This document shows, piece after piece, positions 18,478 to 40,659 of a stretch of 62,024 bases of DNA. The notes under the pieces were generated by a model. The model saw nothing but the letters and a program-made list of their open reading frames with translations, did no database searches and was not told the DNA's origin. The translations under genes and the position numbers were made by a program. This stretch comes from Bacteriovoracaceae bacterium (GTDB lineage: Bacteria > Bdellovibrionota > Bacteriovoracia > Bacteriovoracales > Bacteriovoracaceae), in the NCBI GenBank assembly GCA_017858255.1, contig JAFMBV010000012.1, forward strand, positions 1-62,024. The letters run 5' to 3'. Position 1 is the first letter of the stretch. Each line of letters begins with the position of its first letter.

Positions 18478-19170
18478 ATGGCAGTATTAAAGTTCCCCCC
18501 AGTTGAGACAGCCGATGAAAATGGCCTCCTTGCACTAGGTGGAGACCTAGAAGTTCAAACATTGGTTCTCGCCTATAGTAAGGGCATTTTCCCATGGCCA
18601 ATTTCTGAAGAATTTCCACTTGCATGGTTTTCTCCAGACCCACGGGGAGTTATAGACTTCGACGATCTTGCTCTTAATAAACGTTTTCTACGCTACCTGA
18701 AGAGTCAATCACTCAGGTTCACTGCAAACCAAGACTTTTTAGGAGTCATCAATGCCTGCTCCTCTACGCCAAGGAACTTACAGAGTGGAACCTGGATAAC
18801 AGAGGAAGTCATGTCTAGTTACCATGAGCTTTTTAAAAAGGAATTGGCCTATTCCTTAGAGGCCTGGGATGGAGATAGTCTTGTCGGTGGGGTTTATGGC
18901 GTCTGTATTAATGGGATCATTACTGGAGAATCAATGTTTCATACGGCTCCGAATGCTTCTAAGTTTTGCCTCGTCGCCGTCATGGCCCTTTTAAAAAGAG
19001 CTGGAATCAATTGGCTAGATACACAAATGGTTACCCCTGTTGTGAAGTCCCTAGGTGGTAAGGAGATTCCCCGTGAAGAGTTTCTTAACCGCCTGTCACA
19101 AAACCCTGCCAGAAGCCGTTTAGAAATTTTCCCAGACACCTTAACAGAAGATTTATTTGGTAGTTTTTAG
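18478..19170 (+). CDS. aat: Leucyl/phenylalanyl-tRNA-protein transferase
   Basis: Transfers Leu or Phe from tRNA to N-terminal Arg or Lys, feeding the N-end-rule route to ClpS/ClpAP. It has 230 residues of normal length. The N-terminal family block GLLALGGDL, YSKGIFPW and WFSPDPRGV, then GGVYGV, GESMFH and DTQMVTP, are all conserved. It lies 31 bases after the ureohydrolase and its 3' end overlaps the convergent nuoI by 18 bases. Confidence 0.95.
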   Translation: MAVLKFPPVETADENGLLALGGDLEVQTLVLAYSKGIFPWPISEEFPLAWFSPDPRGVIDFDDLALNKRFLRYLKSQSLRFTANQDFLGVINACSSTPRNLQSGTWITEEVMSSYHELFKKELAYSLEAWDGDSLVGGVYGVCINGIITGESMFHTAPNASKFCLVAVMALLKRAGINWLDTQMVTPVVKSLGGKEIPREEFLNRLSQNPARSRLEIFPDTLTEDLFGSF

Positions 19171-19665
19171 TTGCGAGCGAATAGAGAGAACATCACCAAC
19201 AGTATATCCTTTGCCCTCATTCAACTCATCTCGAAAAGCTAAGTATTGTAGATCTTTGGCCCAGTCATCTTCAAAAGCCCCTGCCATACTTCCCGTCGGA
19301 ATAAAAGCGATGGCCCCCTCAGGGCAAATATCCTCACAGAGATTACATAAAATACACTTAAGTGGTTCAAAATGAAATAATGAGGGAGCAGATGGTGCGG
19401 AATGTCCCGGCACTGGAGCGACCTGTAAGCAATTAGTAGGACATGCTTGGACACAAAGCTGACAAGAGGTACAGCGCAAACTACCATCCTCGTTCACTGT
19501 TAGGACAAGATTATTTTTTTCTAAACTTAACTTTTCTCCTGACTTTAAACGGCCCCAATTTGGTCGTCCTAAGAAACGAAAGAGAATATAAAAGAATTTT
19601 CTAAAGAAAAAAACAATTCGCTTATAGATAGGATTAGGAAAATAAACTTCTCTATCAAGAATCAC
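19153..19665 (-). CDS. NuoI-like 2[4Fe-4S] ferredoxin subunit of a complex I-like module
   Basis: A 170-residue protein with an N-terminal hydrophobic, basic stretch that could sit on the membrane surface. Two classic cluster motifs follow: CTSCQLCVQACP and CILCNLCEDICP (CxxCxxCxxxCP twice). This matches NuoI, which carries clusters N6a and N6b between NuoG and NuoB in complex I. The region between the motifs is longer and Pro-rich (VAPVPGHSAPSAPS). It is the last gene of the five-gene operon. No nuoJ, K, L, M or N follows; aat lies on the other strand. Confidence 0.8.
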   Translation of the reverse strand: MILDREVYFPNPIYKRIVFFFRKFFYILFRFLGRPNWGRLKSGEKLSLEKNNLVLTVNEDGSLRCTSCQLCVQACPTNCLQVAPVPGHSAPSAPSLFHFEPLKCILCNLCEDICPEGAIAFIPTGSMAGAFEDDWAKDLQYLAFRDELNEGKGYTVGDVLSIRSQLKTTK

Positions 19666-21004
19666 TTTTCTCTCCTTTAAATATTTTAAAAGTAGGAGCT
19701 TCTCTACTTATCGCAACTTCTTCATTTTGATAATTGGTGCCATTCCATGACATTTCCCAGTAGGGAGGTAATGGCAACAAACTATCTGCTTTATCGTAAA
19801 TCTCGTGATTCATAAAGGGACCGGCAAATGCCTTAAATTTTGCACCATTAAAGCGTTCCATTACAGCTTTCCAGCTGGTGTCATCGGCAATCCACTCTGG
19901 CATAACGAGGAGAACTTTTTTATGTCCAAGGTCCCCATTATACTCACCAATAAGTTGCTCCACCTTTTCTTTTTTCTTTTGAGTAAAAATTGTTTGAGAT
20001 CTCAGTATCCCCGACTGAGTACTTCTCTCTGGCCAGCGAATAAACTCATAAGACCAATCCTCTCGATTCGTAAGTGAAGAAACCTCACTAATCAAATTGT
20101 CCCACAACTCTTCTGGAAGATTGTCGGGTAAAATAAAATGCCAGTTCTCTGAAAGAGATAAGTGATCCCCGACTAACCATCGTCCTTCAACTTTTGAAAG
20201 TAGAGATCTCAAAGGTAATTTAAACGTATACTTAAGCGGTTTATTAACTTCGTCACATACCCAAAATGATGAGCGACGAGGTGAACTTGCTCGAATTGGC
20301 CTTAAACCATTTGCACTATGATTATAGTGAACTTCAGTGCGACACAATCTATCACATCCTCGACAAAAATCTGCTTCAAGAACATTTGTTTGTATATTGG
20401 ACACGAGGCCACTTTCAAAGCACCCAGTAGGACAGATATCGAGTAAATTGACTCCATAATTATGAGTTAGCTTGCCAACAACTAAAACGACCTCTCCCTC
20501 ATTAGAAAGAGCAGGGACGGTAGAGACACTCTCTTCAAAATCGGTACAAAGCATACAGGAAATACATTGGTCTAAGTTGAGGCTTAAATCTGCACTTAAC
20601 TCAATGGTCTCGCCCTTATCGGGAGCCTTCTCAAGGGAAACACTTTTATTTCCAACCTCATCAACCAAGTGACACCGCGATCGATTATTACATTGTGAAC
20701 AGCTAAAATTATGAGCACCTTGATAGAGGGAATCAACTTCACTTTTACTTAGAGACAGTTCCTCGTGATATAACGAATACCTGCCACCCTCTTCAGGTTT
20801 TGTGAGGCAAGACGAGATAACCTCAGTCTTTTTTTCATCAAAAACATTACAGAGAAGACACTTTCTGGTGCTTTCAAAAAGAGGATGAAAACAAAAGCCT
20901 GGCATTGAAAATCCAGAGTTTTTAATCGCCTCAAAAAGGTTTTCATTCTCGTTGCCGACAATTAACTTACCATCTACGTAAAAGGATAATTGATTTTCAC
21001 TCAT
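19655..21004 (-). CDS. NuoG-like iron-sulfur protein, short form
   Basis: A 449-residue relative of complex I subunit NuoG/HoxU. The N-terminal [2Fe-2S] site is canonical (Cys38, 49, 52 and 66). Next come CSQCNNRSRC (N5-like), CISCMLC with CPTGC (4Fe-4S) and CRGCDRLC (the cluster domain preceding the molybdopterin fold). About 220 residues remain after that, compared with 400 or more in full NuoG, and no pterin-site motif is recognised. It should carry three or four clusters, acting as an electron wire. It overlaps nuoI by 11 bases and the NuoF-like gene by four. Confidence 0.75.
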   Translation of the reverse strand: MSENQLSFYVDGKLIVGNENENLFEAIKNSGFSMPGFCFHPLFESTRKCLLCNVFDEKKTEVISSCLTKPEEGGRYSLYHEELSLSKSEVDSLYQGAHNFSCSQCNNRSRCHLVDEVGNKSVSLEKAPDKGETIELSADLSLNLDQCISCMLCTDFEESVSTVPALSNEGEVVLVVGKLTHNYGVNLLDICPTGCFESGLVSNIQTNVLEADFCRGCDRLCRTEVHYNHSANGLRPIRASSPRRSSFWVCDEVNKPLKYTFKLPLRSLLSKVEGRWLVGDHLSLSENWHFILPDNLPEELWDNLISEVSSLTNREDWSYEFIRWPERSTQSGILRSQTIFTQKKKEKVEQLIGEYNGDLGHKKVLLVMPEWIADDTSWKAVMERFNGAKFKAFAGPFMNHEIYDKADSLLPLPPYWEMSWNGTNYQNEEVAISREAPTFKIFKGEKSDS

Positions 21005-21894
21005 CCTCTCACCTCTAGGGAGCCTTGAAGATATTCAACCATATCATCAATCTGACGATAACGATGTGGAAGACTACACTGGTAGGGTGCTTTAGCGACA
21101 AACCCCGTAAAGATAGTCTCTGCCGTAATCGATGAACGACCATAAACACATGGTAAACATTGGTGACATTGGTCCTTACGAAAGAACTCATTCCAAATTC
21201 TGATTAACTTCTTATCATCACAGTTTGTAAAGAAGTGTAGGGAGCGCACATCATGACTAAGGTCACTTAACCTAATCGATTTAGTAGTATCCCAGCGAGA
21301 AAATTTACCAAAGGGTCCGTCCATTAAAATATGTGAGGTTCTTGGACCACCATTTCCCTCTATTTCAAAAATCTCATTCAATGTTTGATGATGATGAACC
21401 CAAGTAGCACCAAGCTTTTCAACATCACCCCAAAGAGTCACTATTGAATATTGACGTTGATCACTACCCCAAAGGGCATTAAGAACAGTAAGGATAATAT
21501 TAGAGCTAAAAATATACGTTTCAGCTTTTTGACTTAATTCGGTGGCCGAAAGGCTCATCGGTCTAATCAAAACTTCAAGAGGAATTTGTTCTCTATTAAA
21601 GTTTTGAGAGAACTTCTCTTTCACTAGTTCATCTGTAAAAGAAATACTCAATGATTTGCCTAAGGTTTTAAGGAAACTATCAAGTTCAACTAAAACTCTC
21701 CTCAGTAACCCATAACACTCATTAACGAGCACCTCGCCCTGAAAGTCTCCGGGAAAAGAAGATCCTAGATCAAACACCACTCGTGACTTACCATGAAGAG
21801 ACTCTCCAATGATCGATCCAAAGACCTCAGTAAACTTCGAACTTGTTATATCTTTTTCGGTAGAAAATGGTCCATTCATCGGTCCATCTCCCAA
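21001..21894 (-). CDS. NuoF-like protein lacking the FMN/NADH-binding domain
   Basis: A 297-residue protein that aligns by eye only with the C-terminal half of NuoF. It has an SLBB-like segment (VTLWGDVEKLGAT, TLNEIFEI) and the N3-type cluster motif CHQCLPC (Cys243, 246, 249) with a fourth Cys near 273. The NuoF signature GRGGAGFP and the glycine-rich NADH/FMN site are absent. Normal NuoF has about 430 residues. The N-terminal 110 residues match nothing I recognise. Without FMN it should not oxidise NADH itself. Its start lies inside the end of NuoCD (19-base overlap). Confidence 0.65.
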   Translation of the reverse strand: MGDGPMNGPFSTEKDITSSKFTEVFGSIIGESLHGKSRVVFDLGSSFPGDFQGEVLVNECYGLLRRVLVELDSFLKTLGKSLSISFTDELVKEKFSQNFNREQIPLEVLIRPMSLSATELSQKAETYIFSSNIILTVLNALWGSDQRQYSIVTLWGDVEKLGATWVHHHQTLNEIFEIEGNGGPRTSHILMDGPFGKFSRWDTTKSIRLSDLSHDVRSLHFFTNCDDKKLIRIWNEFFRKDQCHQCLPCVYGRSSITAETIFTGFVAKAPYQCSLPHRYRQIDDMVEYLQGSLEVRG

Positions 21895-23507
21895 GGGTCT
21901 AAGTTTAAACTTTGAAAAGCAGTGAAAACACCACTAAGCTCCCCGCCACGTATCAGTTCAGAGAAGGCTCCTGAGTGCACAAGGCTTGGAGACCTAACAT
22001 GGAGTTTCTTTAGACCACTAGGCGCTGTTCTTATAAAAAGCCCAAGCTGACCCTCTGTTGCCTCAATCGAAGAAAAGGAAGTTCCTTCCCTGTAAGGGCA
22101 AGTTCGACCTTCAAAATTATAAGACAAATCACTAGAACCTTCATCATAGAGTGATTCATACATTAGATGTTCTTTATTAATAACCTTACCCGCCGGCAAA
22201 TGGTCCAAAACCTGATTAATGATTCTTAGGCTTTGCTTGAGTTCCTCAAGCCGTACCAAAAAGCGATCATATGTTGTTCCATCAATACCGAGGGGCACTT
22301 CAAAATCGACATCATCATAAAAGTAAGTCGGTTGGGTCTTTCTAGTATCAAAATTAACACCACAGGCCCTAAGGTTTGGACCTGTAAAACCATATTCAAG
22401 TGCTTTTCCTGCGCTCATAGGAAAGCCCTTCGTCACCTCCATCCACCGTGGATTTCTGTTGAACTCACGTTCAACTTCTTCAATGACTTTATAAATGTAC
22501 TTTGCTGCCTCTAGGCACTCAGTACCCCAACCAATCGGGCTCTCCTTTTTCATACCGCCAAAGGTAAATAAGGAGAAATTTTGAGTCTTTCCCGAATAGA
22601 TATTGAAGAGATGATAAACCTGCTCTAATAGTTCCGCAAAGACACTGGCCTCTACGAAGAAACCTAATTCCTGAGCTAACTCCCACAAAAAGGTTAAATG
22701 ACCTTCCACGCGTGCCAACTCCATCCATACCATCCTAATGGCCTTGGCCTTATCTGGTAGAGGAATAGAAAAAGATTGTTCTATAGTTTCAACCCATAAC
22801 AAAGGGGCAAAGACACAATCCTTTATGCAGAGCCTTTCAAAGAAAAAAATCATATTAAAAGGATCTTTCGTTAAACACTTTTTTTCAAAGTCTCGAAAGT
22901 ACAGTCCGGGAACTAAGCGCGAATCAAAAACTCTTTCTTCACTTATAAGTAAATCAACACGAACTTTTCCATTAAAAGGACTGGAGTGTGGACCAAATCT
23001 CTTCCAATATCGTTGTCTTTGAGACTCTGTTGGCCGCAGTGGAATTTGATACTCTGGTAGTGGAATAATCTCATCTTGATTAATCTTATTATTTGCTGAA
23101 GCTAGAACTTGGCGTTGCTGAGTCTTTCTTCCATCACTCAAGAAAAGTTCGTGGTGCTTAACAATATCTGATTCAAAAACCTCCGAACTTTTCCAAAGAG
23201 AAGAAAGAGAAGGAAAGTAATTACTGTTACCAATGGGAACTGTAACCTGTAAGCAGAAATAAACCTCAAGGTTTAAGAACTGATAATATAGAAAACGTTC
23301 TCCAGAGACATCCTCATAGCATATATCAATCAGCATATGAAACCGAAACTCATCTTTAAGCTGAAAAAAGAAGTCCTGGTATAAGGTGGTTTCCTCTGAA
23401 TCTAAAGGAAAAGAAAAATCCTCCGGAAAAACTAGGCTTCCCTTATCTGAAAAAGAAGACTGAAACTTCGTTCCAAACTTCTTGAAAAGTTCATCTCTAA
23501 GACTCAC
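21876..23507 (-). CDS. NuoCD fusion-like protein (30 kDa + 49 kDa complex I subunits)
   Basis: A 543-residue fusion. The first 150 residues correspond to NuoC. The remainder corresponds to NuoD, with MELARVEGHLTFLWELAQELG, FTGPNLRACGVNFD and TEGQLGLFI as landmarks. The quinone-site motif GPQHPxxHG of NuoD reads GPHSSPFNG here and YLHRGIEK reads GLYFRDFEK, so both conserved histidines of the site appear lost. The C-terminus ends LDPWEMDR, which recalls the hydrogenase DPCxxCxxR motif with both Cys replaced. It overlaps nuoB by 11 bases. The family call is strong, but the substrate is in doubt. Confidence 0.75.
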   Translation of the reverse strand: MSLRDELFKKFGTKFQSSFSDKGSLVFPEDFSFPLDSEETTLYQDFFFQLKDEFRFHMLIDICYEDVSGERFLYYQFLNLEVYFCLQVTVPIGNSNYFPSLSSLWKSSEVFESDIVKHHELFLSDGRKTQQRQVLASANNKINQDEIIPLPEYQIPLRPTESQRQRYWKRFGPHSSPFNGKVRVDLLISEERVFDSRLVPGLYFRDFEKKCLTKDPFNMIFFFERLCIKDCVFAPLLWVETIEQSFSIPLPDKAKAIRMVWMELARVEGHLTFLWELAQELGFFVEASVFAELLEQVYHLFNIYSGKTQNFSLFTFGGMKKESPIGWGTECLEAAKYIYKVIEEVEREFNRNPRWMEVTKGFPMSAGKALEYGFTGPNLRACGVNFDTRKTQPTYFYDDVDFEVPLGIDGTTYDRFLVRLEELKQSLRIINQVLDHLPAGKVINKEHLMYESLYDEGSSDLSYNFEGRTCPYREGTSFSSIEATEGQLGLFIRTAPSGLKKLHVRSPSLVHSGAFSELIRGGELSGVFTAFQSLNLDPWEMDR

Positions 23508-24042
23508 CCAAGGCTCCCTCTTTTAATTCGACTTGCCTAATGGTTCCCTTTCTTATTCTTTCTCTTAATAACTCGAGTCCATTAATTAATGAATCTAAGG
23601 TTGGAGGACATCCACCGACATAAACATCAACGGGCAAAATCTTATCAATAGCCATGGTATCAAAGACAGCACCTGTTGCAGTACAGGTTCCAACAGCTAG
23701 TACATAGCGGGGACTGAGCATTCTCTCATAGGCCTCTATAATATATGGCCTTATCTGTTCATTTATAATTCCGGAGACAACAAGGACATCACAGCTTTCG
23801 ATCGGCTCTGACTCTATAAAGTTTTCCCTAATACTGCCAACTTGTGGGTTAGGTCCGCTCAATCTATAAAGTTCACGGGCGCAACAATTTGCACCTAACA
23901 CAAATGGACTTAACAACTCAGACTGTGACCAGGACTTTAGCCGCTCCAAAAAATTCATACTATTTAATGAGTAAAAACTAAGACCAGCTGGTCCTCCCCA
24001 AAATGACTTGCGAGGACCTAGCCTATTTTCGTGAGTTTTCAT
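23497..24042 (-). CDS. NuoB-like subunit (cluster N2 type) of a complex I-like module
   Basis: A 181-residue protein with the NuoB/hydrogenase small-subunit fold. The four cluster ligands of N2 are in place: adjacent Cys pair in GANCCARE, Cys in VGTCTATG and Cys in VYVGGCPPT. This subunit passes electrons to the site formed with NuoD. It is the first gene of the operon NuoB-NuoCD-F-G-I, all overlapping. NuoA, normally just upstream, is missing; a large lipoprotein gene lies 67 bases upstream on the same strand. Confidence 0.8.
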   Translation of the reverse strand: MKTHENRLGPRKSFWGGPAGLSFYSLNSMNFLERLKSWSQSELLSPFVLGANCCARELYRLSGPNPQVGSIRENFIESEPIESCDVLVVSGIINEQIRPYIIEAYERMLSPRYVLAVGTCTATGAVFDTMAIDKILPVDVYVGGCPPTLDSLINGLELLRERIRKGTIRQVELKEGALGES

Positions 24043-24109: not shown

Positions 24110-25726
24110 TTAACGTATTAGGTCTAAACGCTTTCTTCTGGGATTCTGATAAAAATCCTCCCAGCCAACATCCTGAGGAAAAATAGACACTTTCTCTTCA
24201 AGAGGACGGGAAATACATCCTAACTTTTTGCCGGTCTCGGGTACCCAGCTATAAAGTTCTTTATGGGAGCCGCCAATACCGTAATCATACTCAATAAAGC
24301 GGTAATGGGTCTTATTTGCCCCAGCAAGTGAGGCCACAACCGTTACACCCTGCTCAAAAGACTCATCTAGGTCCAAACTACTACAACGCCGATCAGTATT
24401 TAACTCAAAGCGTCTTTTCCCACTCGTCAATCGCGGGTTACCGAGCCAACTGCGTCTAGGACAAAGGTAGTAATAGTCTAAGTCTTCGAGATGGTACCAA
24501 TTTGTCATAAAACTAAAAAACCATGCTCTCTCGGAGTTTTCACGATGATTGGCCGGACGAACGAACTTACTACATGTTCGGAAACGCTCTCCATAATTTT
24601 TATAAAAGTAGAGAAAGAATCTCTTGAAGTCGACAAGGGCCCGTTGCTCTTCCCTACTTCCTTCTTTAGATCGCATATCCTGCTCAGTTTTATCCGAGAA
24701 AACGCTATTTAATGAAAAATTCTTTATGGCCTTAATTCTATCAGCCTGCTTTTTGTACTCTTGGGCCACTTTATCGGTAGCTTCCTTCACGCTTTTTTTC
24801 ATATTTTCACGCACCTTTTCTTGTGAGCGCCAAATATAGTCATATAAATAAAAACAATTTTTTCTCAATGAGTTGATTTCATCAAAAGAAAATAAGTGTC
24901 CTGATTTGAAAGTAAACTCCATCGCCTTTTCTGCTTCGACCTCACCTACCATTCGATAGGCTGGCTCAGGAACTGTGCTAGAGATAGTCCGCCCCCAGCC
25001 ATTTTGAGCAAATGCTTTTACATATGGCCAATCAACTTTACCTTTCAATTCTTTTAGAGTTTTAACATTTTTAAATTTTGGATCGAAGCCATTCACACCA
25101 ACGAGGACAAGACGAGATAACCAGCTTTGATAAGTGCGGCAAGGATAATCATTACAATACTGTAAAACAAAGGCACCTACTACACGGGCCCTTTGAGACT
25201 GTGAACGACCTTTATCCTCACCATCAAATAAGTATTTTTTATCACCAAAGACCCATAGCATTTGTGGTTGGCCCGTTTGATCCAATAGACGTGGAATTAT
25301 CCCAATAGAAAAATTCGGACGATTTATTTTTCCATCGTACGACTCCCAAATATCTTTTTGCTCACAGTAAGTTCTTTTTCGATAAAGCTGCCCGGAAACC
25401 ATATCCATCTCATACTGATGGGCTGAACCGACTGGCGTTGTTAAGAAATATGAAATATCCATACTCTCTTTTGTTTTAAAGGGAGTTAAATCAAAGAAGG
25501 GATGGGTCACAATATCGTGCATACTGGTTCTCTGCGTGAACCTTTCAGGAGCATTAAACCACACTGGCTCGGCCAACACAGACTTTGCCTTCACCTGAAC
25601 ACCCTCTGGCTTTGGATCAGATGAGCATCCAGGTAGCCATAAAAAGCTTAGGCCACTGCACAGAATAACCAAACTTTTTATGAGAGGTCGATTAACTCGT
25701 TGACAATATTGCTGTAAATAGTTCAA
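24110..25726 (-). CDS. Large lipoprotein of unknown function
   Basis: A 538-residue protein with a lipoprotein leader and lipobox LPGC (near residue 34). The start is TTG; no ATG precedes the leader. The mature protein is rich in Tyr, Trp and Arg, has about ten cysteines, and contains a lysine-rich helical section (residues about 285-340, EKVRENMKKSVKEATDK) likely to form a coiled coil. No domain is recognised. It lies on the same strand 67 bases upstream of nuoB, so it may share a transcript with the complex I-like module. It is divergent from tRNA-Leu. Confidence 0.6.
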   Translation of the reverse strand: MNYLQQYCQRVNRPLIKSLVILCSGLSFLWLPGCSSDPKPEGVQVKAKSVLAEPVWFNAPERFTQRTSMHDIVTHPFFDLTPFKTKESMDISYFLTTPVGSAHQYEMDMVSGQLYRKRTYCEQKDIWESYDGKINRPNFSIGIIPRLLDQTGQPQMLWVFGDKKYLFDGEDKGRSQSQRARVVGAFVLQYCNDYPCRTYQSWLSRLVLVGVNGFDPKFKNVKTLKELKGKVDWPYVKAFAQNGWGRTISSTVPEPAYRMVGEVEAEKAMEFTFKSGHLFSFDEINSLRKNCFYLYDYIWRSQEKVRENMKKSVKEATDKVAQEYKKQADRIKAIKNFSLNSVFSDKTEQDMRSKEGSREEQRALVDFKRFFLYFYKNYGERFRTCSKFVRPANHRENSERAWFFSFMTNWYHLEDLDYYYLCPRRSWLGNPRLTSGKRRFELNTDRRCSSLDLDESFEQGVTVVASLAGANKTHYRFIEYDYGIGGSHKELYSWVPETGKKLGCISRPLEEKVSIFPQDVGWEDFYQNPRRKRLDLIR

Positions 25727-33549: not shown

Positions 33550-34623
33550 CTAGTGGGCCTCTGAAATAATTTTTGTAGAAATGAAATTTCTAAAAACACT
33601 AGTTTCTTTAGTAGCAAAAACCCTGCCTTCTTGGCCAACATCTCTGTAAACAAAATAGGCAGCAATTCCTTCCTTTTCAGCGTAAGCAAAGCCCTTCTCC
33701 AAACCCATGGCCATAAGGGCCGTAGCAAGGGCATCCGCCTTCATACAAGAGTCTTTGTGGGCAACTGAAACACTTGCCACTGAGTGGGCCACAGGTCGCC
33801 CTGAGTGAACGTCAATAGTATGAGAATATTTCTTACCATCTTGCATAAAAAAGTTTCGGTAAGAACCACTAGTAGCTAACGCCATAGAATTGAGTTCTAG
33901 AACTCTTTGATAACTTTCTCCTTGGGATACGGGATGAGGAGCTTCAATGGCAATTCGCCAAGAAGAACCATCTGCTTTTTTCCCTAGGGTCCTTACCTCT
34001 CCACCAATTTCAACCATATAAACGTTAGAGCCTTTGGCCATTAAGAACTCGGCCACTTTATCAACACCAAAGCCCTTAGCAAGGGATGATAAATCGAGGT
34101 AAACACCAGGCACTTTCTTTTTAATCTCATTGGTTTTCTCATTAAGAATTATTTTGTCAAAACCAACCCTCTTCTTAGCTTCAGAAATCTCTTTTTCTTT
34201 AGGAACCTTACGACTGCCCCCTGGACCAAAACCCCAAAGATTAACTAAAGGGCCGATTGTCGGATCAAAAGCTCCCTCTGTATCTCTAGCGAGAGCAAGG
34301 GCAAACTTACTAACTTGTAAAAAGTCAGGACTAATCTTGAGCCAACCCAAGCGATCAGTTTGATTAAAGTAAGAGATCTCACTCTCCTTTAAGTAAGTGC
34401 TCATCTCTTTATTAACTTTTAAAAGAAGATCATCAATTAAGCTTTGAACTTCTTTAGGATCATCAAGGCCAGAAGATGAAAGGTATTTGATATTATATTG
34501 GGTCCCCATAGTGCGGCCCTTTAAATGAACCAACTCACCGCTTTTATTACACCCAGTAATAAGCAAAAGCCCCAGCATTGCTAGGGCCTTTAAAGAAAAA
34601 GTACTTAGAAGAACTTTACTCAT
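33550..34623 (-). CDS. apbE: FAD:protein FMN transferase ApbE
   Basis: Covalently attaches FMN through phosphodiester bonds to Thr of NqrB and NqrC. It has about 357 residues from the ATG at 34623, with a lipoprotein leader (lipobox ITGC), so it acts in the periplasm. MGTQYNIKY, EMSTYLKESEIS, DPTIGPLVNLWGFGP, DLSSLAKGFGVDKVAEFL, GGEVRTLG and the C-terminal HTIDVHSGRP and MKADALATALMAMG are all family landmarks. GGTGG of the overlapping nqrF end serves as ribosome site eight bases upstream. Confidence 0.95.
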   Translation of the reverse strand: MSKVLLSTFSLKALAMLGLLLITGCNKSGELVHLKGRTMGTQYNIKYLSSSGLDDPKEVQSLIDDLLLKVNKEMSTYLKESEISYFNQTDRLGWLKISPDFLQVSKFALALARDTEGAFDPTIGPLVNLWGFGPGGSRKVPKEKEISEAKKRVGFDKIILNEKTNEIKKKVPGVYLDLSSLAKGFGVDKVAEFLMAKGSNVYMVEIGGEVRTLGKKADGSSWRIAIEAPHPVSQGESYQRVLELNSMALATSGSYRNFFMQDGKKYSHTIDVHSGRPVAHSVASVSVAHKDSCMKADALATALMAMGLEKGFAYAEKEGIAAYFVYRDVGQEGRVFATKETSVFRNFISTKIISEAH

Positions 34624-34627
34624 TTTT

Positions 34628-35851
34628 TTAACCACCAAAATCATCGAGTGCAATATCATCGCGCTCAACTCCAAGAGAGAGGAGCATATCAATCACACAC
34701 TTATTCATTATCGGAGGACCACATAAGTAATATTCACAATCCTCAGGATTTGGATGGTCTTTAAGATAGTTTTCAAACAGAACATTATGTATGAAACCTG
34801 TGTACCCTTCCCATTTATCAACCTCTAACGGTTCAGATAAGGCCACATACCAATTGAAGTTTTTATTTTCACTTTGAATACTATCGAAGTCTTCAACATA
34901 GAACATTTCTCGCTTAGAACGAGCTCCGTACCAAAATGTTACTTTGCGATCAGTTTTAATTCTTCTGAACTGATCAAAGATATGAGAACGCATTGGTGCC
35001 ATCCCAGCACCACCACCGACAAAGACCATTTCTTTATCAGTATCTTTTGCAAAGAACTCACCAAATGGACCAGATATAGTTGATTTATCGCCAGGTTTAA
35101 GATCAAAGATATAACTCGACATTTTTCCCGGAGGTACATTTGAAAGTCTTGGTGGAGGCGAAGCTACTCGAACATTAAGCATAATGATGCCTTTTTCATC
35201 TGGGTAGTTGGCCATGGAATATGCACGAATTGTAGGCTCTTCCACATATGATTTAAATTGCCATAAATTAAATTTATCCCAATCTTCTCGGTATTCTTCT
35301 TCAACTATAAAATTCTTGTATTCAATATTTAAACCACCAGGTCTTTCGATTTGAATAAAACCACCGGCCTTAAACGGAACATCTTCACCAGGAGGTAATT
35401 GAAGAACGAGTTCTTTAATAAAGGTCGCCACGTTATGATTACTCTTAACTACACAGTCCCACTTCTTTACACCAAAAACTTCTTCAGGGACTTCGACTAA
35501 CATATCTTGTTTAACAGCTACCTGACACGAAAGGCGAACACCTTCCCGGGCCTCTTTTTTAGTAATGTGCGACAGTTCAGTTTGAAGAACCTCTCCACCA
35601 CCCTCAAGAATTTTAACCTTACACTGACCACAAGTTCCTCCACCACCACAGGCAGAACTTACAAACAATTTCTGGTCCGCTAAAATATTGAGAAGCTTAC
35701 CGCCGGCGGCAACTTCTATATCTTTCTCCCCGTTAATATTTAATTTAACAGGTCCGGAAGCAACAAGTTTTGACTTAGCTAAGAGGATAACGAGAACCAA
35801 GGCCAAGATGACCACGGTAAACATTCCTACACCTAGTAAAATTTGACTCAT
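34628..35851 (-). CDS. nqrF: Na+-NQR subunit F (NADH dehydrogenase)
   Basis: The entry subunit, oxidising NADH via FAD and a [2Fe-2S] cluster. It has 407 residues: one N-terminal membrane helix, a ferredoxin domain with [11 protein letters not shown] (three Cys) plus a Cys in LSCQVAV, then an FAD domain (RAYSMANY) and an NAD domain ([19 protein letters not shown]). It ends DDFGG, as is typical of NqrF. Confidence 0.97.
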
Positions 35852-35877
35852 AATTTTTCCCTATCTAAAAAACTTTC

Positions 35878-36495
35878 TTATAATTGAATACCAGAAAAAC
35901 CTAAAAACCCGATGGCCATAAGGCCTACCGTAATAAAGGTAATACCAAGACCACGAAGTCCCGGAGGAACATCAGAGTATTTCATCTTTTCACGAATCCC
36001 AGCAAGAGCAGCAATGGCCAACGCCCAACCGACGCCTGATCCCACCCCGTAAGTAACTGACTCACCGAAAGTATAATCTCTTTCCACCATAAAAAGAGTT
36101 CCACCCAAAATAGCACAATTCACAGTTATCAATGGAAGGAAAATACCAAGAGCATTATAAAGAGCAGGAACAAAACGGTCTAGAATCATCTCCAAGATCT
36201 GAACCATCGCGGCGATAACACCGATGTAGGAGATGAGCCCCAAGAAGCTAAGGTCTACATCAGCAAGGGAAGGATGCATCCAAATCAATGCCCCCTCTTT
36301 TAGAAGCCCATTATAAATAAGGTTATTGACCGGCACAGTAATTGTTTGCACAACAACAACAGCAACACCAAGTCCTAAGGCGGTATTTACCTTCTTGGAA
36401 ACGGCAAGAAATGTACACATACCTAGAAAGAAACCAAGGGCGAGGTTTTCGATAAAAACAGCTTTAATAAATAGATTGAGGTGATGTTCTAACAT
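35878..36495 (-). CDS. nqrE: Na+-NQR subunit E
   Basis: A 205-residue membrane subunit with six helices. It contains the family segments [14 protein letters not shown] (Cys near residue 26) and TVNCAILGG (Cys near residue 120), the two half-helix cysteines that with NqrD bind iron. It lies 12 bases after nqrD and 26 before nqrF. Confidence 0.96.
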
Positions 36496-36507
36496 ATTAA
36501 ATCTTCC

Positions 36508-37128
36508 TTAATTTTCTGTTTCGATTTGTTCAGTTTTAAAAGTTCTAATTACCCAAATGATAATACCTATAATAAAGAAGGCTGAAGGAGACAAAAGTGC
36601 CATCCCATTTGGTTGGTACCATCCACCTTCACTTATCGTCTTAAACACAGTCATTCCAAGAAGCTTTCCACTTCCAAAAAGCTCTCTAAAGAAGGCAACG
36701 ATGAGAAGAATAAGCGAATAGCCTAAGCCATTTCCAATACCATCAAGAAAGCTCATGAAAGGACCATTCTTCATGGCATATCCTTCAGCGCGCCCCATAA
36801 CAATACAGTTGGTAATAATTAGCCCAACATAAACAGACATAGATTTAGACACTTCAAATACATAGGCCTTCAAAATTTGGTCAGTTAAAATAACCATCGA
36901 AGCAATGATCGTCATTTGAGCAATAATTCTAATTGAAGAAGGTATTTGATTTCTAATGATAGAAACAAATAGTGAACTAAAGCCCGTAACTAAGATAACG
37001 GCCATCGACATAACCAAGGCCGTTTCAAGCTTAGTTGTAACCGCTAGGGCAGAACAAATCCCAAGAATTTGCAGCGCTATAGGATTATTATTAAAGAGTG
37101 GATCAAATATTGTCTTTTTAATACTCAT
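36508..37128 (-). CDS. nqrD: Na+-NQR subunit D
   Basis: A 206-residue, six-helix membrane subunit homologous to NqrE in inverted topology. The two iron-ligand cysteines are visible in [14 protein letters not shown] and [21 protein letters not shown] is also a family segment. The start is two bases after nqrC. Confidence 0.96.
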
Positions 37129-37130
37129 TA

Positions 37131-37913
37131 TTAAACTCCTCCTGCACGAAAAATCGCGAGGAACTTTCCATAGCCGCCATTACTAAGCCAATAGTTCACA
37201 CTAGCTTCAACACCATTTGAAGTCAGTGTCGCTCCACTGAGGCCATCAATTTTACTAATAGCTCCATCCATTGAAGAATCGACACTTCCTTTAATAACAT
37301 CAATCGTTGGTTTGTAAGAATCACTTAAGACTTTCTTGCCCTGCCATGACGCTTGCCATTTTTTGTTGTCAATTTCTCCACCGAGACCAGGAGTTTCACC
37401 GTGCTGATAAAAGCCAATACCTTTGACTGTCTTAGTATCAGGAGCGAGAGATAAAAAGCCGTACATGGTTGACCATAAACCCTTGCCATGAAAAGGAAGA
37501 ATTATTTGGCTCACTTTCCCCGATTCTTTCACTAAATAAACAGGCCGCACTTTTGCCCTCATTTTAATGCGTGCAATATCTTCAGCACGAGGGATCGAGG
37601 TTGCCATGCTAGGGTCTTTATCTGCTTTTTCAAGGTCGTAAGTAGAGGAGTCCATATCCGTTACTTCTTTCCCAGTCGAAAGATCAATGAGCTTGGTTTC
37701 AATTTGCTCAAATGCTTCCTTAATTTGGTTCTCAGTGACTTTAGGTGAGTCAATCAGACCAGCAGCAAGAAGAAGATTCTTTTTTACATCAAGACGCTTG
37801 TTTTTAACTTGAGTTGGCTTTAGTAAAACAGCTGCAGTCGAAACTAGAACTGAACAGGCCACACATAAGCAAGCAGCGACAATAAGTGTTTTTGAAGTAC
37901 TATCGTTAGACAT
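37131..37913 (-). CDS. nqrC: Na+-NQR subunit C (covalent FMN)
   Basis: A 260-residue protein from the ATG at 37913, with one N-terminal helix and a periplasmic FMN-binding domain. The attachment motif LSGATLTS, in which Thr carries FMN, lies near the C-terminus, and [10 protein letters not shown] precedes it. A longer frame to 37952 exists, but AGGAGG about 10 bases before 37913 favours the shorter start. It overlaps nqrB by eight bases. Confidence 0.95.
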
Positions 37914-39108
37914 TTCTAAGTGCCCTCCTCTTAATGTTGGCATTGATGACAAAGTAGTCGATCAGTGGGGCAAAACAATTGGCAAAAAGAATCGCCAACA
38001 TTGTTCCCGCTGGATACGCAGGGTTTACAACTCTAATGAGGGCTACCATAAAACCAATAAGGAGACCATAGTACCACTTACCCGTCTCAGTCATGGAAGC
38101 AGATACGGGATCAGTTGCCATAAAAACGGCACCAAAAGCAAAGCCCCCAACAACAATATGCCATAATGGTGGCATGCTAAACATCATATTCGTTTCGCTG
38201 CCAATCATGAAGAACAAGGCAGTAGTACCAACCAGTCCAACTAGACAAGCAAGCATTATTCGCCAAGAACCAATACCTGTTGCGATTAAGTAAATTGCTC
38301 CAAGAATAACCGCTAGAGTAGATGTCTCCCCCATACTTCCAGGAATAAGACCTATAAAGGCATCCGTAAAGCTAAAGGTAACAGCATCAATACCACCAGT
38401 GGTCGCTTGAGATAAGATTGTTGCGCCGGAGTAACCATCAACCGCCGTCCAAACCTTATCGCCCGAAATTTGCGCAGGATAAGCAAAGAAGAGAAAAGCT
38501 CTGGCCGTAAGTGCAGGATTAAGAAAGTTCTTTCCTGTTCCACCAAAGATTTCTTTCCCAATCACAACACCGAACATAATTCCAATGGCAACCTGCCAAA
38601 GTGGGATTGTTGGTGGAAGAGTTAGAGGATAAAGAATCCCCGTAACAAGAAAGCCCTCGTTGATTTCGTGTTTACGTACTACGGAAAAAACTACTTCACA
38701 AAGGCCACCAGCAATTTGAGTAACTAAAAAAACAGGAACAAAATAAAGAGCTCCGTGAACAAAGTTAGAAATAATATTGTGAGGATCAGTTGCTAAACCC
38801 ATCAGAGTAAGAATCGCTCCGCGCCAACCTTCAGCAGACGTTTGCCCCATCTCAGCCAATACACTGTTAGCCTGATAACCAGTATTAAAGAGGGCCATCA
38901 GAATACAAGGCATCAAAGCAATTGCCACAGTACCCATTAGTCTTTTCAAATCAATGGCATCTCTGACATGAACTGCACCCTGAGCCGTTTCACCTGGAGT
39001 GTAAACAAATGTATCAAGGGCTTCATATAAAGGATAAAGAACCTCTAGCTTTCCACCTTTGGCAAAGTGAGGGTGTTGTGAATCGAGGAAATCTCTTAAG
39101 ACCTTCAT
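37906..39108 (-). CDS. nqrB: Na+-NQR subunit B (covalent FMN, quinone and Na+ path)
   Basis: A 400-residue membrane subunit with about ten helices. The FMN motif is [10 protein letters not shown] (Thr is the attachment site for ApbE). [31 protein letters not shown] and [10 protein letters not shown] are family landmarks. NqrB holds riboflavin and the ubiquinone site and forms the Na+ channel. Its ATG overlaps the nqrA stop by one base. Confidence 0.97.
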
Positions 39109-40445
39109 TATCCTTCCTTCTCAATAATGGTTAATGTTTCTCTAAGTTCGGGACCAAAGTCATCTTTACCTGGACTGGCAAAGGTACAAAGGGCCAAATC
39201 TTCCTCATCTAATTCTAAGGCACCCAAGGCCACAGCTAAATCAGTGTCTTTAGTTAATATAGCTTTTAAGAGTTGTGTCGGAAGAATGTCTAATGGCATT
39301 AAGCTCTCAAAAATCCCAACCGGTACGATGGCCCTCTTAGAACCGTAAGTATTGGTATGAAAGTCGAAGACTTTTTGCTTAAATTTTCCAGCATACGTAT
39401 TCTTAACTGAATACTTATCAAATCCAGGTCCTTGCCACCCTAGAAACTCACGAGTTGTGTTTTCTTCGAGGATAGTTACTTGATTGTGGTAGCGCCCAAG
39501 ATAACAAAAAGTATCATCTTTTTTACGACCATTTAAAATAGAGCCAGAAACTATACGAATGGGACCTTCTCTCTCTTCACCAACAAGAAGCTCACAGAGG
39601 CAAGCACCGATTCTCGTTCTAAGAAGACGAGGGTTTTTCGCTTTTGGACCAGACAATGAAATAATTTTTTCTAGAAATATTTTTCCGGTGCTTACGAGGC
39701 GACCGAGGGCCACTACGTCTTGGAGTCCAATATGCCATACAATTTTATTTACCCCTACTGGGTCTAAGTGATGAATATGAGTGCCAACTAAACCAGCGGG
39801 GTGGGGGCCATCAAACTCAACGGTTTCAATATTGTCCCCAGTAAAGCTAATAGTTTTCGTTCCGGGATTTTTTGTGACAAATACTTTTGGTGCCAACTTA
39901 CTTAAAGCTTCAACGCCAATATTAAAGTCAGCTTCATACTCATTTAACAAAATCTCTGAGTCAGCAGAGAGTGGATTCGTATCCATGAGATTAACAAAAA
40001 TGCTACTTGCCTGCGACCCTAGCTGAGGAACCTTAGAAAATGGTCTTGTTCTAAAAGCCGGCCATAAACCAGCCTCAACCATTAAAGATTCAATTTCTTT
40101 AGCTGTATAATCTTTGGGGTCCTTGTTAGCATAATTCGTGAGGGACTTTTGCTCGCCTCCCTCATTACTTACTACAACATTTTGAAGAACCCTTCTATCC
40201 CCCCGATTAATGGCCATAACAGTTCCATTAGCAGGAGAAGTGTAAATTACACCGGGAGTTTTTTTACATTCAAAAAGTGGATCACCAATCTTTACTTTGT
40301 CCCCTTCTTTTACTGCCATCGTTGGTTTCATTCCAACATAGTCAGGACCAGTAACAGCGACTTTAGTTACGGCGACAGCATTAAAAACCTTTTGAGCGGG
40401 AACACCTGAGATGGGTAAATCGAGACCTTTTTTAATCTTGATCAT
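39108..40445 (-). CDS. nqrA: Na+-NQR subunit A
   Basis: The cytosolic subunit of the sodium pump, 445 residues. It shows [11 protein letters not shown] at the N-terminus, [16 protein letters not shown] and the C-terminal [13 protein letters not shown]. The ATG at 40445 follows AGGTG at six bases; a GTG at 40454 is less likely. It is the first gene of nqrABCDEF-apbE-nqrM. The 210-base region upstream has no recognised site. NQR implies Na+-based energy coupling, as in marine bacteria. Confidence 0.96.
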
Positions 40446-40659
40446 AAAGCACACCTGAGCCTTAGAAATAACGGCTCCCGAGTTATACTTTTACTTGAAA
40501 AAGTTACTCGGGAAACATTGCATTGTTAGAGTTTATAAGGGTTTATACCAAATTAAGTGATTATTTGTAACTAGTAGAATTTAAAGTTTTTACTTTTTTG
40601 ACGTGAACATTTGTGTTGCAGAACATTCAAAATATTTTTTGTATATTTTGAATGGGCAA

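Follow-up and report, generated by a model that had tools for sequence, protein, structure and literature searches.

An eroding second complex I, probably displaced and possibly kept in a non-catalytic role, in the Bacteriovoracaceae

Results

Five complex I-like genes without an NADH site

The window, the 62,024-nucleotide stretch of DNA analysed here, is contig C55 of the Bacteriovoracaceae genome G000 (assembly of 4.08 Mb, 98% complete). Between positions 19153 and 24042 it carries five overlapping open reading frames (ORFs), all on the minus strand, whose products resemble subunits of respiratory complex I; we propose that they may belong to a second complex I that has been displaced and is eroding. 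The proteins are denoted B2, CD2, F2 (or F'), G2 (or G') and I2, and the ORFs of the putative second membrane arm are primed (H', L' and so on).

23497..24042, minus strand: B2, NuoB-like, 181 amino acids (aa); NCBIfam NuoB, 3e-30; four N2 cysteines kept (CCCC).
21876..23507, minus strand: CD2, NuoCD fusion, 543 aa; NuoD, 4e-65; syntenic in relatives.
21001..21894, minus strand: F2, degenerate NuoF, 297 aa; weak PF10589; aligns with the intact NuoF of G020 and G092.
19655..21004, minus strand: G2, degenerate NuoG, 449 aa; NuoG, 2e-16, over the N-terminal 200 aa.
19153..19665, minus strand: I2, NuoI, 170 aa; NuoI, 8e-17; eight 4Fe-4S cysteines kept.

In searches with Pfam and NCBIfam profiles all five proteins score far under the equivalog cut-offs and are thus very divergent members of their families. 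The NuoC part of CD2 gives a weak match only, and the profile match of F2 (E = 0.01, under the cut-off) is confined to the C-terminal NADH_4Fe-4S stretch; the identity of F2 is settled by its alignment with the true NuoF of relatives. An earlier reading of the DNA (the sequence-only reading) had recognised these five genes, and the profile matches together with the F2 alignment bear it out. It had also described the iron–sulphur (Fe-S) ligands of B, G, I and the C-terminal part of F as kept. The alignments agree: ligands are present for N2 in B2, for N3 in F2, for N1b, N5, N4 and an N7-like cluster in G2, and for N6a/N6b in I2. F2 has the four N3 cysteines and none of the flavin mononucleotide (FMN)/NADH motifs of the aligned G020 and G092 NuoF. 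As CD2 and F2 overlap, there is no room for nuoE between them. NuoE, pointed out as missing from the window, is missing from the whole genome, as is the NuoF FMN domain: profile searches of the 98% complete assembly found no match anywhere to NuoE (PF01257) or to the NuoF FMN domain (PF01512), F2 included. In CD2 the equivalents of His38 and Tyr87 (Thermus thermophilus numbering), quinone-site residues of NuoD, are Asn and Ile; both residues are intact in canonical NuoD and in G020.

Two other enzyme types were considered for the module. A group 4 [NiFe]-hydrogenase (Ech, Mbh, Hyf/Hyc) was rejected because CD2 has neither CxxC nickel-ligand pair; its profile scores are 4e-65 for NuoD vs 2e-5 for hydrogenase large subunits. 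A HoxEFU diaphorase was rejected because the FMN/NADH-binding HoxF is absent, PF01512 not being found in the genome. An apparent HoxEFU and NiFe-hydrogenase operon does occur in G012 (L171 8225-13016), and its large subunit surfaces in NuoCD searches.

The canonical complex I and an apparent second membrane arm

Elsewhere in the genome, the end of contig C179 carries canonical nuoB-C-D-I (nuoB is cut by the contig end) and contig C207 canonical nuoA-H-J-K-L-M-N, which together make up an 11-subunit complex I; this canonical complex (L008 8679-11340) is without NuoEFG. The canonical nuoN is followed directly by a run of seven additional membrane ORFs (90, 282, 142, 81, 447, 356 and 389 aa), which mostly overlap by a few bases and for which Pfam gave no match above chance. 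The initial 21 family genomes inspected all have the same cluster, in order and relative sizes, behind nuoN, though contig ends truncate it in a few. The sequence-only reading had noted that A, H and J–N are absent, which is true of the window; the genome as a whole has both the canonical arm and an apparent degenerate second one, and the notion that no membrane arm exists in it was rejected.

Relatives indicate what the seven ORFs may be. The second set of G020 is clearly A, H, J, K, L, M, N and intact, and that of G026 nearly so; G034 and G037 show A, H, J, K and part of L within the stretch examined, and the second arms of G039 and G059 are in an intermediate state. An iterative hidden Markov model seeded with these sets reaches H' in 19 of 30 genomes, including all six of the same genus, and profile comparison of H' with the intermediate NuoH gives 97%. 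The AlphaFold model of H' [predicted local distance difference test (pLDDT) 84] matches NuoH/ND1 at a Foldseek probability of 1.00, a fold match that is not fully independent because the alignment behind the model includes recognisable NuoH relatives. By this chain of sequences and the predicted fold, H' is confirmed as a second NuoH. A', J', K', L', M' and N' are apparently the remaining second-arm subunits, placed by order, size and the intermediates in relatives.

A protein of ~1050 aa with tetratricopeptide repeats (TPR) and a conserved N-terminus, KYRIKLSNGRIVGPF (L048 13575-16772 and equivalents), follows the last nuo gene; among the relatives its gene sits there with or without the second arm.

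The second-complex locus across the family

The sequence-only reading had proposed a check of the five-gene order in related genomes. The peripheral locus is conserved, in the order lipoprotein, B, CD, [E, F, G], I, aat, and is variably reduced. It is complete, B-CD-E-F-G-I with a full FMN domain, in G020 and G092. Two further g15 genomes, G034 and G037, have E and an intact NuoF after CD, the stretch examined ending before G and I. Degenerate E', F' and G' occur in G011; F' and G' are all that remains of EFG in G000, G001 and G002; B-CD-I only is found in G004-G006, Halobacteriovorax and most others, and lipoprotein-CD only in G018. H. marinus 36_234_T64 belongs to genus g3, and its CD shares 99.8% identity with the CD of G089; the B-CD-I locus of this strain is L067, and the degenerate arm is present in other g3 genomes. 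The suggestion that the module is a distinct oxidoreductase built from complex I parts gives way here to a complex I that was once complete and is losing parts in steps, at a locus that is conserved and, in relatives, intact. The possibility that the genes are a standard nuoA-N set recently copied and pseudogenised was also rejected: the frames are open, the locus is family-wide and the genes are not a recent copy of the canonical ones.

Seven genomes (G012, G038, G053, G009, G007, G052 and G030) have the TPR gene directly after nuoN, and the second arm is therefore absent from them. The second complex is wholly absent from four of these (G009, G012, G038 and G053), and in G010 the second arm is reduced to A', H', J', K' and a 214-aa ORF. 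Second arm and CD2 are both present in 27 genomes and both missing in four; CD2 occurs without the arm in two and the arm without CD2 in none (p = 4e-4). On the canonical-arm tree, the genomes that have EFG intact lie scattered between degenerate ones, a topology which may point to degeneration on more than one occasion.

The gene upstream of the second nuoB was examined as a possible partner.

24110..25726, minus strand: putative lipoprotein, 538 aa; no Pfam match; directly upstream of the second nuoB.

It is the upstream neighbour of nuoB at the second-complex locus in most of the family, an association only, and it is also found in one genome from another family of the phylum. As a fixed partner it was rejected, the linkage being loose and the gene occurring in some genomes without CD2, e.g. 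G012.

Further nuo operons with NuoF occur in G067 (L169, adjoining the second-complex locus), G009 (C82), G010 (C4), G048 (C4) and G030 (C17); PF01512 was found in those of G009, G010, G030 and G048.

Na+-NQR and intact second-complex NuoF are complementary

The window also encodes, as the sequence-only reading had stated, a nearby NQR, complete from A to F and with ApbE.

33550..40454, minus strand: apbE and nqrF-E-D-C-B-A, Na+-NQR; NCBIfam matches.

With presence defined as NqrF over the curated cut-off, NQR is found in 26 of the 27 genomes sampled whose second complex is degenerate, and all six whose second-complex NuoF is intact lack it [Fisher p = 6e-6 (0.003 at genus level), on counts that ignore shared ancestry]. 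The lone degenerate genome without NQR, G030, possesses NuoF in a third nuo operon. G009 has no NQR and also has a third operon; G010 and G048 have NQR plus such an operon. The two f6 (Bdellovibrionaceae-type) genomes tested have NuoF and lack NQR. NQR is the likely NADH oxidiser in the genome of the window, and with the NADH module lost, the view that the five genes are unlikely to be a working NADH dehydrogenase stands. Because NQR and intact EFG are complementary in their distribution, NQR probably took over NADH oxidation and freed the second complex I of that task; the presumed order of events is gain of NQR, then loss in the second complex.

Loss of ligands and quinone-site residues

The quinone-site triplet is His-His-Tyr in the canonical and intact sets and altered in every degenerate CD, some of which retain one or two of the three residues. 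The N2 cysteines have been lost in six genera (G010, G016/G061, G027, G030/G067, G032 and G039/G081), which still carry B and CD and usually I too; these losses map to about four places on the canonical-arm tree. NuoI ligands have likewise been lost, with the genes kept, in some related genera. Since N2 was lost and the genes were kept in six genera, the common reason for their retention is not to be sought in electron transfer to quinone.

Erosion of the second arm

Residues of the pump and junction are complete in canonical arms and nearly complete in intact second arms (almost all in G020), partly lost in G026 and mostly lost in G048, G059 and G039. In the genus of the window, H' is missing the acidic loop residues; the other arm ORFs of G000 are not alignable for the channel Lys/Glu. 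Comparison of G000 with G002 gives a non-synonymous difference (pN) below the synonymous one (pS) in all second-complex genes tested, with pN/pS of ~0.11-0.18 for H', CD2 and B2 and ~0.65 for L' and M'.

Counted from the junction with the Q-module, the order of subunits along the arm is H, A, J, K, N, M, L. In the second arm pN climbs from this junction to the tip: rho is positive in 9/9 pairs (mean 0.65) and reaches 0.93, 0.96 and 0.96 in the three closest same-genus pairs, vs -0.14 for the canonical arm in the same comparison of pN with position; pairs drawn from one genus are not independent of each other, and with saturating divergence the trend fades. G010, with little left beyond A'H'J'K', fits the tip-first direction. 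The gradient supports the assignment of the ORFs and suggests an arm that is still assembled in order and eroding from its tip.

Discussion

In the reading we favour, the window holds the Q-module and a remnant NADH module of what would have been a second, formerly 14-subunit, NADH-oxidising complex I, and the membrane arm of this complex would be the degenerate A'-H'-J'-K'-L'-M'-N' directly behind the canonical nuoA-N cluster. After takeover by NQR it would have lost NuoE and the FMN/NADH domain as well as the residues of the quinone site, and relatives whose arms can be aligned suggest a loss of proton-channel residues also. Erosion would have started with L' and M' at the distal tip and moved inward to H', where the arm meets the Q-module. 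The frames are still open and changes are constrained, strongly so in H', CD2 and B2. The proteins may still assemble around a B-CD-I-H' core as a non-catalytic complex that serves as a structural or regulatory companion; the live 11-subunit complex I is a possible partner. We infer from the sequences that B-CD-F'-G'-I of the window and the A'-N' cluster would form one complex, that it could neither oxidise NADH nor reduce quinone in the usual way, and that it would be kept, next to a putative partner, in such a non-catalytic role. Belief and doubt are evenly balanced for this explanation taken whole, a displaced second complex I that is eroding and kept non-catalytically. The more specific proposal of a pseudo-complex I, in which catalysis by the whole complex has died out, in parallel, in several lineages while the complex, eroding from the arm tip to the quinone-module junction, is retained and assembled as a structural or regulatory partner, perhaps as heterodimer mate of the live 11-subunit complex I, is tentative, and we doubt it somewhat more than we believe it.

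Several observations weigh against the favoured reading. The clade of the window retains all Fe-S ligands, which a purely structural role need not call for. A', J', K', L', M' and N' of the window's genus show no signal to Nuo subunits in profile comparison, and the model of L' is poor: at this low confidence its top Foldseek matches are to ND5 at a non-significant E of 0.3, and VIA-align returns unrelated helical folds mixed with NuoL/NuoN. The B proteins of the most diverged genera align weakly, which makes some of their ligand losses less certain; dS is saturated, so that constraint is measured roughly; and CD2 is present without the second arm in G052 and G030.

The retained ligands are what a rewired redox conduit would call for, in which the Fe-S chain carries electrons from a new donor (there being no FMN site) to a new acceptor (there being no usual quinone site), much as the sequence-only reading had imagined a wire with changed ends. 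All cluster ligands are present in G000; G000 and G001 agree in the four N3 cysteines of F' and in 16/16 Cys columns of G', though F' is only 31% and G' 41% identical overall; and the degenerate E'F'G' of G011 keep their Fe-S cysteine ligands too. Limited to the clade that keeps F' and G', the conduit is possible and a serious rival. Set against it are the same-genus genomes G004-G006, which have neither F' nor G', the loss of N2 or NuoI ligands with genes kept in several genera, so that the intact chain is not a family-wide property, and the fact that no candidate donor or acceptor was found. We consider the conduit unlikely overall, and rank a structural or regulatory role above it because several genera have lost the N2 ligands yet keep the genes.

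The second complex might instead simply be obsolete since the arrival of NQR, without present function and heading slowly for loss. The stepwise loss of modules across genera, its end points in G009, G012, G038 and G053 (nothing left), G010 (a partial arm) and G018 (lipoprotein-CD only), and the weak constraint on L' and M' would all follow from such decay. It is nevertheless improbable, since in nearly all genomes the frames are open and the seven arm genes keep their overlapping start and stop codons, pN is well under pS in H', CD2 and B2, and the Cys ligands of G' are kept. Least probable, in our estimate, is that the window's proteins serve as a docking head, or as an alternative peripheral arm, for the canonical 11-subunit complex I and not for the degenerate arm. 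That complex is without EFG in this genome, and G052 and G030 have CD2 and no second arm to go with it; however, a B, C, D and I set already belongs to the canonical complex, CD2 has lost the quinone-site residues, and CD2 and the second arm are kept together in most genomes.

If the favoured reading of a displaced, eroding complex holds, the family would offer a series of living intermediates in which complex I comes apart step by step, losing its NADH module, its quinone site, its pump residues and its distal pump subunits; Na+-NQR would be a plausible trigger, and many genera are available for comparison. It makes testable which parts of complex I are dispensable when others are retained, and whether a pump of many subunits can persist as a pseudoenzyme; Halobacteriovorax, a culturable predator, carries second-complex genes. 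NQR is on record for Bacteriovorax marinus (PMC4014512). This group goes unmentioned in a large prokaryotic survey of complex I (PMC12361115), and the Halobacteriovorax/Bdellovibrionota genomics papers searched say nothing on the complex I of these bacteria; the literature searched, a scope outside which most subscription papers lie, yielded no description of such a degenerate set.

Of known systems, the 14-subunit NDH-1 with a NuoCD fusion (Bdellovibrionaceae, G020/G092) is like the window set in its order B-CD-(E)-F-G-I and its Fe-S ligands; the window set differs in having no NuoE or FMN/NADH domain, in the replaced quinone His/Tyr and in an arm that appears degenerate and is encoded elsewhere. 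The 11-subunit enzymes without NuoEFG (Desulfitobacterium, PMC11238625) correspond in composition to the canonical B-C-D-I and A-H-J-K-L-M-N of this genome. Like the window set they have no working NADH module; unlike it they are described as active, with the usual Q-module, whereas in the window set the quinone residues are gone and F'/G' are still present. Rhodobacter sphaeroides, with its IA and IE isozymes (PMC4859585), likewise combines in a single genome two complex I sets that are phylogenetically distinct; both are described as active complexes, whereas here one set has lost catalytic residues. Pseudoenzymes, inactive scaffolds or regulators (PMC11266112), share with the second complex the loss of catalytic residues and the retention of the gene; the difference is that here an entire multi-subunit ion pump appears to be affected.

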